The notes under the pieces: model-generated
Database searches by the model: none
The model's input: only the letters and a program-made list of their open reading frames with translations
Told to the model about the DNA's origin: nothing
Position numbers and translations under genes: made by a program
NCBI GenBank assembly: GCA_012735145.1
Contig: JAAYIA010000008.1
Location: 1 to 35,268, forward strand
Length of the DNA: 35,268 nt
Source: Clostridiales bacterium
GTDB lineage: Bacteria > Bacillota > Clostridia > Peptostreptococcales > Anaerovoracaceae
Reading direction: 5' to 3'
In this document: piece after piece, positions 10,256 to 15,949 of the stretch
Layout of the letters: every line of letters starts with the position of its first letter
How positions within the stretch are numbered: position 1 is the stretch's first letter

Positions 10256-10645
10256 ATGACTGATAAAACATTGAACGGATCCAGAAAAAGAATTATGCCA
10301 AAGGAAGTTTATTATCAATGTATTTGGATGATTAGGGATATAGACAGACTTGAAGAATTGGCGCTGAATAAATATCTATTCGAGAATTGTTCGAATAGCG
10401 AGGTGGCTTTTATTGCCGATGATACTCAAGACCTGATTTCAGTTGAAATTATTAAAGAAGCAGTTAGGAGATTGGAGTGTATTCATGATGCACTTGATAC
10501 AATACCTGAGGAGTATAGAAAAGATATCATAGATATAATAAAAAAAGTGCGGCCCTATTATCCGGATACCGCACATGAAAATACTTGGAATAAATGGAAA
10601 CATTGTTTCATATATAGGCTTGCAAAGAATATGGATATGTTTTAG
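10256..10645 (+). CDS. Small hypothetical protein, possibly related to phage-type late regulators
   Basis: Open frame with ATG; 'MPKEVYYQCIWMIRDIDRLEEL ... EEYRKDIIDIIKK' recalls small helical phage regulator-like proteins; weak resemblance only. TATAAT at 10205-10210 upstream. Confidence 0.45.
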   Translation: MTDKTLNGSRKRIMPKEVYYQCIWMIRDIDRLEELALNKYLFENCSNSEVAFIADDTQDLISVEIIKEAVRRLECIHDALDTIPEEYRKDIIDIIKKVRPYYPDTAHENTWNKWKHCFIYRLAKNMDMF

Positions 10646-11508
10646 ATTCTGCACTTGGCGATGTATGTACCACCTTCAGGGAGTTTAAGTTCCTCATCAG
10701 GTGTTTCAAAAGTCCACAAAGGTGCATTTGCTCTTATCGAATCCATGACAGCATAGAAGTTAAACATTAATATTCCGTAATTCAGATACATATCTGATCC
10801 GTCTGTAATTTCATCTTCAAGGCCAATCAGATAAACATAGCTATCATCAAGGATAAGTCTGTATGGCTGGCGATTCAGAAAGGACTGCGCTTTGCTGGCT
10901 GCAAGCAGAGAACTTTCAAGCTCTGCATATAATTTCTCTGACTCTAACGGCTGACCGTATACTTTATAAGAAACTAAATCGTCAAGGCTGATTTTTGGCG
11001 CAGCCTTTGTTCCGCTTTCAATCATTTTAACATTTGATGGACTCTTTATGTCGAGCCTGGTTTCGGTTACATCCTTATTTCTATATCCGAATGCTATAAT
11101 AGCAGCAATGGTTTTGTCACTATCTTCATCGATTGTTTTCTTTGCAATATCGGCATCATTAATAGTAAGCCAACATGCGGCAAGATCAAGTTGGGTCATT
11201 TTAAGTGTCAAGCCCTGAGCAATAAAGCCTGCATTCTCAAGATAATGATCTTTTTCTTCTGAGAAAATAACAAGATAATTAGGTGCTTTAATAAGGAAGC
11301 CATTATATCCAACGCTGCCTTCTGTTTTCTCTAGAGTAGCGTATGAGTATGTTTTTAATTCTGTGGCGATTTCAGGGACCAGCAAAGTTTCCTGGTTATA
11401 ATATTCATATAAGGCATCAATTTTAATTTGCTCTACATCGTTCATAATAAAATTTCTGCATGATTCTCTTCTTTTTACAATTTCGTCATAATATTTGATA
11501 TATTCCAT
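10642..11508 (-). CDS. Nitroreductase family protein (putative TM1586-type)
   Basis: 'YDEIVKRRESCRNF', 'KAPNYLVIFSEEKDHYLENAGFIAQGLTLKMTQLDLAACWLTI', 'AIIAFGYR'; on the minus strand AAAGGAG lies just upstream of ATG at 11508, so the 343-aa ORF start is likely too long. Confidence 0.8.
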   Translation of the reverse strand: MEYIKYYDEIVKRRESCRNFIMNDVEQIKIDALYEYYNQETLLVPEIATELKTYSYATLEKTEGSVGYNGFLIKAPNYLVIFSEEKDHYLENAGFIAQGLTLKMTQLDLAACWLTINDADIAKKTIDEDSDKTIAAIIAFGYRNKDVTETRLDIKSPSNVKMIESGTKAAPKISLDDLVSYKVYGQPLESEKLYAELESSLLAASKAQSFLNRQPYRLILDDSYVYLIGLEDEITDGSDMYLNYGILMFNFYAVMDSIRANAPLWTFETPDEELKLPEGGTYIAKCRI

Positions 11509-11711
11509 AATTATAAACTCCTTTACATATGTGTATTGTGGAAATTTGATTAATGATTTTCTTATGTATTCCCATTCATATTGATTATATGGGTTTCTGC
11601 TCATAAAGTCGATAGGAATAAGAGGCATTTTCTTAGTAATTTTGGCCAAGAAAATGAATAAATTATGATACAATACATATGCATATAGAAAATTATTGTC
11701 AAGGAGAGATT

Positions 11712-12245
11712 ATGATATTAGAGGAAAAGACTATCAGTAGTGAGATTGTTTATAGGGGACCTGTTTTTGACGTAAGAAAGCATTTGGTAGAAACTCCAGG
11801 AGGGAAAACTACTCGAGATGTCGTTGAACACAACGGTGGATCTATTATGTTAGCAGTAACAGATGAAGGAAAAATCTTGATGGAAAGGCAGTTTAGGAAA
11901 CCTTTGGAGAGAATTGTTCTGGAGCTTCCTGCAGGAAAGATTGACCCGGGAGAGGATGCTTTGGTTACAGCTATAAGGGAACTGGAAGAAGAAACAGGAT
12001 ATAAGGCAGGTGATGTGAAGCATCTCATTTCATATAATCCCACCTGCGGGTACTCCAATGAAACTCTTCATATATATTTATGTCGAGAACTCTCGCCTGG
12101 GAGAAAAAATTGGGATGATACTGAGTATCTGGAAATTGAAGAATACGAAGCGGACGAAATCATAGATATGATAAAGGATAAAAAAATAAAAGATAGTAAG
12201 ACAATTGTAGGGATACTTTTCGCAAGATTGATTGGTGAAATATAA
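11712..12245 (+). CDS. NUDIX hydrolase (ADP-ribose pyrophosphatase-like)
   Basis: Nudix box 'GKIDPGEDALVTAIRELEEETGY'; AAGGAG upstream of ATG 11712. Confidence 0.92.
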   Translation: MILEEKTISSEIVYRGPVFDVRKHLVETPGGKTTRDVVEHNGGSIMLAVTDEGKILMERQFRKPLERIVLELPAGKIDPGEDALVTAIRELEEETGYKAGDVKHLISYNPTCGYSNETLHIYLCRELSPGRKNWDDTEYLEIEEYEADEIIDMIKDKKIKDSKTIVGILFARLIGEI

Positions 12246-12249
12246 GTGA

Positions 12250-13143
12250 ATGTTGATGATTAAAGTAAGCGATTTTATTGAATATTTGAGCATATCCGGA
12301 AACAAGAAAAAAAACACATTGGTTGCATACGAAAGAGATCTCAATGAGTTCGAGCTTTTTTTGAAAGAAAGGGATGGCAAATCACTAAATGATTGTAGCG
12401 AAAGTGATGCCGTTGCTTTTGTTCTCGCTTTGAATAAGAAGAAAAAGTCAAAGGCTACCATTAATCGCAAGATATCATCCATCAGAATGTTTTATGAATA
12501 CCTTATAGATAAGGATATATTAGATACTAATCCGTTTTCAAAAATAAAATCTACAAGAAATGATAGACGGGATATAGACTTTCTTAGCGTTGAAACAGTA
12601 GAAAAGCTTCTTTCTCTTCCTGAAGACACAGATAAGGGCATAAGGGACAGAGCTCTTATGGAATTTATGTATGGAACCGGGGCAAGGGTAACTGAGGTGG
12701 TAAGGCTTAAATTCTCGGATATAAATTTCAAAATGAGTTTTGTAACGCTGAGAGATTCTTACGATGAGAAAAGGATAGTTCCTCTCGGAAGCTATGCAAA
12801 TGCGGCGATGAGAAGGTATATAAATGAAGCATACATCTCTATTAAAGGTCGAGAAGTATCTTTTGATGACTATTTCTTTATAAATTTAAGAGGAGAGGCT
12901 CTGACAAGACAAGGTATATGGAAAATTTTTAAAGAATATGGAGAAATGATAGGTATTGCCGAGCGAATGACACCACAGATTTTTAGAGATAGCTTTGCAA
13001 CACACATCCTCCAAAACGGCGGAGATCTTAAAACTTTGCAGGAACTTATGGGTTTTGAAGATATGTCTGTAGGTATTGCATATCTTGCAATGGTGACTGT
13101 ACATGTTAAAGAGGTTTTCAATAAATGTCATCCTAGAGCTTAG
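12250..13143 (+). CDS. Tyrosine recombinase, XerD-like, with degenerate active site
   Basis: N-terminal SAM-like core-binding domain 'TLVAYERDLNEFELFL'; 'YGTGARVTEVVRLKFSDI'; 'MTPQIFRDSFATHILQNGGDLKTLQELMGFEDMSVGIAYLAM..HPRA'. Confidence 0.85.
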   Translation: MLMIKVSDFIEYLSISGNKKKNTLVAYERDLNEFELFLKERDGKSLNDCSESDAVAFVLALNKKKKSKATINRKISSIRMFYEYLIDKDILDTNPFSKIKSTRNDRRDIDFLSVETVEKLLSLPEDTDKGIRDRALMEFMYGTGARVTEVVRLKFSDINFKMSFVTLRDSYDEKRIVPLGSYANAAMRRYINEAYISIKGREVSFDDYFFINLRGEALTRQGIWKIFKEYGEMIGIAERMTPQIFRDSFATHILQNGGDLKTLQELMGFEDMSVGIAYLAMVTVHVKEVFNKCHPRA

Positions 13144-13208: not shown

Positions 13209-13298
13209 ATTAAGGCTGTTATTACGGGCGGTCCTCTGGTTGCAGATAGAATTTCTAATCATTAAACCAAGAACGTCTTGAGGGGAGGGAGAAATAAC
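13209..13298 (+). ncRNA. Candidate ribosomal protein L19 leader RNA
   Basis: Long structured 5' UTR before rplS; CCTC(13233-13236)/GAGG(13280-13283) and TGGTT(13237-13241)/AACCA(13265-13269) complementarity near the Shine-Dalgarno. Confidence 0.5.
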
Positions 13299-13640
13299 AT
13301 GAATATTTTAGATCAGCTTACAATGGATTACAGGAAGGAAGATCTTCCAAAGTTCAATGTTGGCGACACTGTGCGTGTACACATTAAAATAGTCGAAGGC
13401 CAGAGAGAAAGAATCCAGGTTTTCGAGGGTTATGTGCTTAAGAAGCAACATGGTGGTGTCAATGAGACGTTCACTGTAAGAAAGCTGTCCAGAGGAATTG
13501 GCGTTGAGAAGACATTCCCGCTGCATTCACCAAGAATTGATAAGATTGAGGTGATAAGAGAAGGAAGAGTCAGAAGAGCAAAACTCCACTACATGCGTGA
13601 GAGAACAGGCAAGGCAGCAAGAATTAAAAGTGCCAGATAA
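13299..13640 (+). CDS. rplS: 50S ribosomal protein L19
   Basis: '[91 protein letters not shown]'; GGGAGG before ATG 13299. Confidence 0.98.
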
Positions 13641-13730: not shown

Positions 13731-14588
13731 ATGGGGAATATAGAAAAAATTAACTGGTATCCCGGCCATATGAAAAAAACTAGGGAGATGATACGAGATA
13801 ACCTAAAGGCTGTTGATCTTGTAGTTGAGATTATAGATAGCCGTATTCCTGTGTCCAGCAGAAATCCGATTATTGACGATTTAATATCCGGAAAGAGAAG
13901 GATTGTAATCCTAGGTAAATTTGATCTTGCCGATGAAGCAGAAACTAGAAATTGGCAGGAACAAATAAGAGCTTCCAAGGATGTGGTCAAGGTGATGGCT
14001 CTTAATTTACAGTTAGGTGATAATATAAAATTGCTTATAAAGGCATTAGATGCTGAACAACATATAAGAGATGTAAATAAGTCAATCAAAAGGCCTCTGC
14101 GACTTATGATAGTGGGTGTTCCTAATGTCGGAAAATCTTCGCTTATAAACAGGTTGACCGGTAGAAAATCTGCTCAAACAGGAGATAGACCTGGAGTGAC
14201 GAAGGGTAAACAATGGCTAACACTGGAAAACGGAATGCAGCTACTCGATACACCGGGAGTGCTTTGGCCCAAATTTGAGGATAATAATGTAGGGCTTAAA
14301 CTTGCATTCTGCGGAAGTATAAGGGACGATATATTAGATGTTCAGGAGCTGGGTTTTGAGCTAATTAAGGTGCTTGGAAATACATATCCTGATCTCTTGC
14401 TGGAAAGATACAAACTGGATTATATAAGTGAAAATGCACTTGAAAATATGGACAATATAGCAATCAAGAGGGGGTTCATACTGCCTGGTAAGCGGATAGA
14501 TTATGAAAGAACCGCTAGGATTGTTCTTGATGAATTTCGCAGCGGAAAAATAGGACGTATTACCTTAGAGAAAGCAAGGACATTATGA
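13731..14588 (+). CDS. ylqF: Ribosome biogenesis GTPase YlqF/RbgA (circularly permuted)
   Basis: 'INWYPGHMKKTREM', G4-like 'GKFDLAD', 'GVPNVGKSSLINRL', 'DTPGVLWPK'. Confidence 0.95.
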   Translation: MGNIEKINWYPGHMKKTREMIRDNLKAVDLVVEIIDSRIPVSSRNPIIDDLISGKRRIVILGKFDLADEAETRNWQEQIRASKDVVKVMALNLQLGDNIKLLIKALDAEQHIRDVNKSIKRPLRLMIVGVPNVGKSSLINRLTGRKSAQTGDRPGVTKGKQWLTLENGMQLLDTPGVLWPKFEDNNVGLKLAFCGSIRDDILDVQELGFELIKVLGNTYPDLLLERYKLDYISENALENMDNIAIKRGFILPGKRIDYERTARIVLDEFRSGKIGRITLEKARTL

Positions 14589-15949
14589 CAAAGCTTGAAA
14601 GAATCGAAATTCAGAAACAGAGATTGCTGGATATGAAAGCCCATGAAAACGAATTGCGTCTCAAAGGGTTAAAATATATAGCCGGTATAGACGAGGTCGG
14701 TAGGGGTCCCCTTGCCGGTCCTGTTTATGCGGCCTGCGTGATTATGCCTGAGAATTTTGAAGTACTCGGTATTAACGACTCCAAGAAGCTTACCGCAAAA
14801 AAAAGAGATGAGTTTTTTGACCTTATAACTGAGAGCGCTGTGGCTTACGGCATTGGTATAGTTGACAATAAAGAAATAGACAGTATAAATATACTTGAGG
14901 CGACAAAGAAAGCGATGATAAAAGCCATCCATGCGTGCAATAAGATGCTATCTGAAAAAATCGGAACTGATGCACAGATCGATATATTGCTTATCGATGC
15001 CCTCAGGATTGACATAGACATTCGTCAAGAGTCAATAGTAAAAGGTGATGAAAAATGTCTTTCAATAGCAGCAGCTTCCATATTAGCGAAGGTCTCACGA
15101 GACCGCTATATGGTGGAAATGGAAGATATATATCCGGGGTACGGTTTTGTCAGCAACAAGGGATATGGAACAGCTGCACACTATGATGGACTGAATGAAT
15201 TTGGAATTACTCCTATACACAGGAAAAGTTTTCTCAAAAATTTCAGTTCCGAGCAGGATATAGCACGAAAAACGATTAAAGCTACAAATGGAGGAAATAT
15301 GGCAAAGAAAATATATGCCGTAAAGAAAGGAAGAATAACGGGAATCCTGATGACATGGGAGGAGTGTAAAGCCAGTGTTGATGGATTTGCAAACGCAGAG
15401 TACAAGAGCTTTACCGATGTAGACGAGGCACTGGATTATATTGGCTTATCCAGGACCGGATCACTTTTAAATACTGATGTTAAATCAAAAGGCTTTGTAG
15501 CACAAGAAAAAAAACTGCCTTCCGGAATACGTGCCTATGTTGACGGAAGCTTCGATGAAGCAACAGGGAGATTTTCATGTGGTGCTGTCATAGTTAAAAC
15601 GGATGAAGAAGGCAAAACGGATATTGTTGAGTTAAACTCTGCATTTAATGATGAGGAATTTGCAAAGCACAGAAATGTCGCCGGAGAAGTAATGGGTGCG
15701 AAGCTCGCAATCGATTATGCTCTAGATAATGACATAAAGGAAATAACTATATACCACGACTATGAGGGTATTGAAAAATGGGCGAATGGACTATGGAAGA
15801 CGAATAATCCTCTGACGAAAGCATATAAAGCATATGTGGCCGATGCCAGGGAGAAAATTAAAATAGATTTTGTCAAAGTAAAAGCCCATACCGGAGATAA
15901 ATACAATGAAATGGCTGATAGACTTGCAAAGAAGGCTCTCGATATGTAA
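14585..15949 (+). CDS. RNase HII fused to viroplasmin/hybrid-binding domain + RNase HI
   Basis: Residues ~1-220: 'GIDEVGRGPLAGP', 'LIDA', 'KGDEKCLSIAAASILAKVSRDR' (RNase HII); ~239-454: 'MAKKIYAVKKGRITGILMTWEECKASVDGFANAEYKSF' (HBD) and 'AYVDGSFDEATGRFSCGAVI..GEVMGAKLAI..IYHDYEGIEKW..NEMADRLAKKA' (RNase HI). No intervening stop. Confidence 0.93.
   Translation: MTKLERIEIQKQRLLDMKAHENELRLKGLKYIAGIDEVGRGPLAGPVYAACVIMPENFEVLGINDSKKLTAKKRDEFFDLITESAVAYGIGIVDNKEIDSINILEATKKAMIKAIHACNKMLSEKIGTDAQIDILLIDALRIDIDIRQESIVKGDEKCLSIAAASILAKVSRDRYMVEMEDIYPGYGFVSNKGYGTAAHYDGLNEFGITPIHRKSFLKNFSSEQDIARKTIKATNGGNMAKKIYAVKKGRITGILMTWEECKASVDGFANAEYKSFTDVDEALDYIGLSRTGSLLNTDVKSKGFVAQEKKLPSGIRAYVDGSFDEATGRFSCGAVIVKTDEEGKTDIVELNSAFNDEEFAKHRNVAGEVMGAKLAIDYALDNDIKEITIYHDYEGIEKWANGLWKTNNPLTKAYKAYVADAREKIKIDFVKVKAHTGDKYNEMADRLAKKALDM

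Follow-up and report, generated by a model that had tools for sequence, protein, structure and literature searches.

A XerD ortholog with a degenerate, probably non-catalytic active site in Mogibacterium and other Anaerovoracaceae, accompanied by an XerS-like recombinase and a candidate dif site

Streptococci carry, beside the single-recombinase system XerS/difSL, a degenerate relative of XerD, the XerD-like protein (NF002685/PRK02436). Its gene is located near scpA-scpB and, to our knowledge, the protein is not involved in difSL recombination. We know of no XerD ortholog that persists beside XerH of the Epsilonproteobacteria. The XerH/difH system consists of a single, longer recombinase and a linked, near-symmetric site (PMC2731167, PMC5357621) and resembles in its arrangement the system described below. 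Passages of PMC8523169 and PMC8242196 that cite Karaboja et al. 2021 state that XerD of Bacillus subtilis expels SMC from the terminus without recombination. For the tyrosine recombinase Cre, loss of the catalytic Lys alone inactivates the enzyme, whereas the variants K201A and Y324F still bind and synapse DNA (PMC4381057).

The window is the whole stretch of DNA that was analyzed, 35,268 nucleotides in length. The host is a gut bacterium whose assembly amounts to 1.13 Mb in 91 contigs and is 83% complete; by the names of orthologous loci and by taxonomy it was placed in the genus Mogibacterium, family Anaerovoracaceae. The window encodes a XerD ortholog (Table 1) with a SAM-like N-terminal domain followed by a Phage_integrase catalytic domain; the arrangement in two domains and the HPRA at the C terminus, both reported in the initial annotation, were borne out. 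The protein can be aligned over its entire length with E. coli XerD (1a0p; phmmer 3.9e-37) and scores 269.1 bits against TIGR02225, the XerD equivalog model, which is under the curated cut-off of 329.6. End-to-end similarity, the position next to a NUDIX gene, the two-domain fold, the RQ..W segment and HPRA are shared with E. coli XerD and B. subtilis RipX (XerD), from which the window protein differs in having neither the catalytic Lys nor any of the three His. Membership of the streptococcal XerD-like group was considered and rejected, as the score against NF002685 was 37.8 bits (cut-off 178) versus 269 bits against TIGR02225. These two scores point to separate descent, that is, to an apparent parallel arising in a different subfamily. 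What is common to both cases is a degenerate XerD relative beside a recombinase of the XerS type; the streptococcal protein is shorter, with a model length of 245 as compared with 297 aa for the window XerD.

Table 1. Location of the features of the XerD locus and of the second recombinase. Positions refer to the window, except for X2, which is located on contig C83 of the host genome (G000). Residue numbers of the window XerD are followed by the E. coli XerD equivalents where these apply.
Feature	Position	Strand	Basis or remark
XerD ortholog, 297 aa, stripped catalytic site	12250..13143	+	ORF and translation; TIGR02225 score; alignments
NUDIX hydrolase gene	11679..12245	+	4-base gap 5' of xerD; half of the conserved NUDIX-xerD pair
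rplS (ribosomal protein L19)	13278..13640	+	kept 3' of xerD by most genus members; rbgA and rnhB come next
Arg I, kept, R146 (R148)	12685..12687	+	alignments
Catalytic Lys position, Ser170 (K172)	12757..12759	+	alignments; hairpin counted without gaps from its anchor Arg
T219-R220-Q221...W224, segment matching the DNA-recognition helix	12904..12921	+	R, Q and W invariant in the family
HxxR His position, Gln243, codon CAG (H244)	12976..12978	+	alignments
Arg II, kept, R246 (R247)	12985..12987	+	alignments; invariant in 73/73 family sequences
Second His position, Asp247 (H248)	12988..12990	+	alignments; Asn in most of the family
LGH His position, Phe269 (H270)	13054..13056	+	alignments
Tyr nucleophile position, kept, Y278 (Y279)	13081..13083	+	alignments; replaced by Phe or Leu in nine orthologs of the family
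C-terminal HPRA (H294-A297) and stop codon	13132..13143	+	P, R and A do not vary among family members
X2, XerS-like tyrosine recombinase	G000:C83:11292-12434		PF00589 search of the host genome

The catalytic set of the window XerD reads R-S-Q-R-D-F-Y, as opposed to the canonical R-K-H-R-H-H-Y. A family-aware MAFFT alignment gave residue assignments identical to those of the pairwise alignment with E. coli XerD, and the earlier reading of the residues by eye (S, Q, D and F substituted, both Arg and the Tyr kept) proved correct at every position. The β-hairpin of the window protein (TLRDSYDEKR) has no Lys at the catalytic place, and that of most members of the genus has no Lys at all (TLRDVNDESR). 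When aligned with XerD the K/H/H residues were not found relocated elsewhere in the protein, and no alternative alignment that restores them was found. The segment that corresponds to T219-W224 contacts DNA in XerD generally. An AlphaFold model of the window protein (pLDDT 85.5, pTM 0.63) has the tyrosine-recombinase fold and adds little on activity. Since loss of the Lys alone inactivates Cre, no cleavage by this XerD is expected, and to judge from its residues we consider the window XerD non-catalytic with near certainty.

All 33 full-length orthologs from the genus (55-83% identity) have the pattern R / no K / Q or L / R / D / F / Y, which is far more than chance would give; in M. pumilum, M. 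timidum and M. kristiansenii, N replaces D at the H248 position. No close relative has an intact site and the substitutions are shared within the genus, so the window sequence is no decaying allele. For the family, 73 sequences were compared, the window and 72 loci, with L336 omitted as a likely foreign contig. None of the 73 has an intact active site: the Lys is kept in 2, H244 in 12, H248 in 6, H270 in 57 and the Tyr in 64. The nine sequences without the Tyr, eight with Phe and one with Leu, belong to several genera, and a maximum-likelihood tree of 99 sequences requires at least six state changes at this position. The vacated catalytic places have no substitute residue that is common to the family. 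Among the invariant columns are Arg II, R-Q..W, the His in FATH, the Asp in LGHxD and PRA at the C terminus. With its neighbors conserved, xerD is present in 82 of the 84 good family genomes (≥90% complete, ≤5% contaminated). The median dN/dS of xerD is 0.029 (36 pairs; Nei-Gojobori, pairs with dS 0.1-1.5), and the few higher values stem from saturated pairs. Loss of catalysis in the XerD of the family is strongly supported, and the constraint on the protein has shifted from catalysis to fold and probably to DNA binding.

XerDs of the order and class outside the family mostly keep HxxRH, LGH and the Tyr, and their hairpin Lys is variable. The Lys was counted by following the hairpin without gaps from its anchor Arg, since a shift in the MAFFT alignment mimicked loss of K172 in class-level XerDs; read in this way, many of these retain K172. 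The positional XerDs of many other Clostridia (L285-L332, L038-L052) retain every His as well as the Tyr, but their hairpin has no Lys in its usual position. Second, more distant XerD copies in G004:C49:5317-6189 (L046) and in G193 (L336) look like contaminating contigs.

A NUDIX gene lies 5' of xerD, as initially annotated, and the adjacency of the two genes extends beyond the genus to further families of the order. In these other families scpA-scpB are located 2-3 genes from xerD, and in the genus the proximity of xerD and scpB is lost. The gene order of L040 is NUDIX-spoIIM-xerD-dacF-scpA-scpB; that of L039 is the same, the NUDIX gene there being unconfirmed. The NUDIX-xerD pair across the order and the order xerD-dacF-scpA-scpB in L040 and L039 support the view that the gene is the positional xerD and no mobile integrase. 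As a candidate defense-system protein it was rejected, with no PADLOC match. A 454-aa ORF of the window (14585-15949, + strand) fuses RNase HII (33-217), an RNase H1 N-terminal domain and RNase HI. The RNase HII/RNase HI fusion is present in nearly all Mogibacterium loci, and the parts are separate in L119. A TM1586-type nitroreductase-like gene at 10642-11673 (- strand), 5' of the NUDIX gene, was otherwise found only in the closest relative (L075) and is a recent insertion into the conserved cluster.

The PF00589 search of the host genome, which is 83% complete, yielded two proteins only, the window XerD and a second recombinase, X2; a XerC gene is absent from this set. The best NCBIfam match of X2, over the full length, is XerS (NF003462), with 145.2 bits, under the cut-off of 267; X2 comprises 380-400 aa as compared with 356 aa for XerS. 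The active site reads R-K-H-R-A-H-Y in 21 of the 21 X2 sequences read. From our own reading of the flanking sequences, X2 presumably sits in a miaA-X2-ynbB-like cluster. Identity of X2 within the genus is 74-88%, and that to X2 of other families of the order is 52-60%. X2 was found in all 84 good family genomes and, in a class sample of 118 genomes (1e-60), it was confined to the family. Three genomes of the order (G047, G058 and G059, 96-99% complete) have X2 and no XerD ortholog. Dimer resolution is probably carried out by X2. In many other Clostridia, for example G086, G120 and G142, XerD is accompanied by a second recombinase of approximately 325-365 aa with 205-218 bits to the XerD model, which may be their XerC or a further single Xer.

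In the complete chromosome of M. pumilum (NZ_CP016199.1) the cumulative GC skew has its minimum at approximately 326 kb and its maximum at approximately 1,258 kb, and X2 is located at this maximum, at approximately 1,260 kb. When the region of this maximum was scanned for palindromes in an unbiased way, ACTATTCCTAAAATCATAATTTTGGGAATAGT was obtained at 1,256,596. The candidate dif is the single-copy near-palindrome AACTATTCCnAAAATTATGATTTTAGGAATAGTT, which is also present in other Mogibacterium; in the host genome it is located at G000:C83:15682-15709, and it was found in about 130 further genomes. The pattern TATTCCNAAAATNATNATTTTNGGAATA (≤3 mismatches) occurs in 27 of 36 genomes of the genus, once in all but one, and a looser pattern matches 106 of the 149 genomes of the family, in nearly every case once. 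Controls with the reversed pattern matched a single family genome and gave nothing in the genus. When candidate dif and X2 are on one contig, they are separated by a median of 4.8 kb, and by 10 kb or less in 52 of 55 cases; the candidate dif is near X2 also in G047, which has no XerD ortholog. The best match to the B. subtilis dif in the complete M. pumilum chromosome has 7 mismatches and lies away from the terminus. The difSL patterns were likewise tried in M. pumilum and gave no good match.

The candidate dif is conserved over approximately 34 bp, with variable flanks. Its arms (TTCCnAAAA / TTCCTAAAA) are nearly identical, so that one recombinase would be expected on both sides, and because the sequence outside the 34 bp is unconserved no adjacent XerD site is evident. 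As in the XerS/difSL system of streptococci and lactococci, the site is at the terminus with the recombinase gene close by, and the arms of difSL (TTTCCGAAAA; PMC5357621) resemble those of the candidate dif (TATTCCnAAAA). The two sites differ in that difSL has unequal arms and an 11-bp center, whereas the candidate dif is symmetric with an inferred 6-bp center; XerS is immediately beside difSL, whereas the gap between X2 and its candidate site is a few kilobases. We take the candidate dif to be the probable dif of a single-recombinase system, at which X2 is predicted to recombine DNA. A takeover of dimer resolution by the XerS-like protein with this site appears highly likely.

The reading that we prefer, and to which we assign about an even chance, is that XerD has been kept as a DNA-binding protein of the terminus, with unloading of SMC-ScpAB as its likeliest task, and that X2 resolves dimers at the candidate dif. 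X2 would have taken over chromosome-dimer resolution, probably alone, on the near-palindromic site of 28 to 34 bp a few kb away. XerD, freed of catalysis, would have lost the Lys first, the three His next and, in several lineages, the Tyr. Retaining its fold together with Arg II and the helix that likely reads DNA, it would have become a sequence-specific DNA-binding protein, which would bind sites near the terminus and unload SMC-ScpAB there, as XerD of B. subtilis does. With the cutting machinery gone and another enzyme apparently cutting at the terminus, XerD is likely to survive as a DNA-binding chromosome organizer; the binding of DNA is itself predicted from the conserved helix. Taken separately, a role with SMC or at the terminus is put forward tentatively, with a chance somewhat short of even. 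The missing active site and the retention under selection agree with a recombination-independent function; the proximity of xerD to scpA-scpB in other families of the order speaks for the SMC role, and the loss of this proximity in the genus speaks against it.

ScpB, the component searched for, is encoded in the host genome and in 56 of 60 relatives. It occurs also in genomes without a XerD ortholog, so that a link between XerD and SMC is not obligatory, and joint loss of ScpB and XerD followed no clear pattern. XerD half-site words were not enriched near the terminus of M. pumilum, where the true motif of the family XerD may differ from these words. Fifteen of the 19 copies of the 9-mer TTCTAAGAA in the M. 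pumilum chromosome (L153-L246) lie within 200 kb of the terminus (1,256,610). This 9-mer has no wider consensus and is unclustered in two relatives with a contiguous terminus, and its enrichment at the terminus is probably a result of chance or composition.

The lack of an obligatory link to SMC and of a terminus-enriched motif would also suit a DNA-binding regulator that acts away from the terminus, as a repressor, a nucleoid-associated protein or a blocker of mobile-element sites, and so would the retention of Arg II and of the likely DNA-recognition helix under strong purifying selection. Such a regulator is unlikely, as no particular target is indicated and the recombination-independent task of the B. 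subtilis ortholog at the terminus could be inherited without innovation.

The initial annotation had proposed an attenuated or non-catalytic partner. The non-catalytic part of this proposal almost certainly holds. A partner in dimer resolution would act at or beside the candidate dif and assist X2 in a regulatory or architectural way, in synapsis or in the order of strand exchange. The C-terminal tail of Xer proteins makes protomer-protomer contacts, and it is kept in this XerD; XerD and X2 also co-occur in the good family genomes (82/84 and 84/84). Catalytically dead Cre variants, moreover, still synapse (PMC4381057). Against these points, the candidate dif is nearly symmetric with no adjacent XerD site evident, and genomes of the order (G047, G058, G059) carry X2 without XerD, in G047 together with the candidate dif, which makes this role distinctly unlikely. 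XerS, the closest known relative of X2, acts alone (PMC5357621), and the residues E184, Y187 and W188, by which E. coli XerD contacts FtsK-gamma (PMC5052618), are Y, A and A in the window XerD.

That XerD still cleaves DNA, by means of Arg, Arg and Tyr alone or with substitute residues, is very improbable. The Tyr and both Arg are present in the window and in all genus sequences; some tyrosine recombinases are active with Gln or Tyr in place of His III, and Cre H289A retains activity at a reduced level (PMC4381057). However, the general-acid Lys, the loss of which suffices to inactivate Cre, is absent from 71 of the 73 family sequences, the family shares no substitute residue, and orthologs without the Tyr occur in several genera. 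The suggestion that the protein uses altered chemistry for dimer resolution is not supported, because 9 of the 73 family orthologs lack the nucleophile and the whole family possesses an intact XerS-like recombinase that has a candidate terminus site of its own. A pseudogene in waiting, left to decay after the XerS-like takeover, as the catalytic-site substitutions, the faster evolution of XerD than of X2 (55-83% versus 74-88% genus identity) and the apparent absence of XerD from G029 and G031 might suggest, is hardly credible and was rejected on account of a dN/dS of approximately 0.03, the 33 full-length genus frames, the retention in 82 of 84 genomes and the large number of columns near the former active site that do not vary, the two absences having little weight because the assemblies are incomplete.

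A search of the literature found no report on Xer systems of Mogibacterium or Anaerovoracaceae, which is no proof of novelty. Returning to the preferred reading, in which XerD binds DNA at the terminus, we suggest as a more tentative generalization that the family has undergone a natural split of functions, in which the XerS-like enzyme resolves dimers and XerD is a dedicated, non-enzymatic SMC-unloading factor of the terminus, independent of the streptococcal XerD-like protein. The pair of candidate dif and X2 is now proposed for Anaerovoracaceae and relatives, which are common in rumen, gut and mouth and in which classical searches for dif fail. The pipeline label 'site-specific tyrosine recombinase XerD' is probably wrong on activity for the gene of this family. 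In B. subtilis, SMC removal and recombination both reside in one enzyme, XerD. The family supplies dozens of natural dead XerD variants, some of them without the Tyr, for testing the second job; if the preferred reading is true, a XerD stripped of catalysis and under selection would mean that this second job alone is worth keeping.
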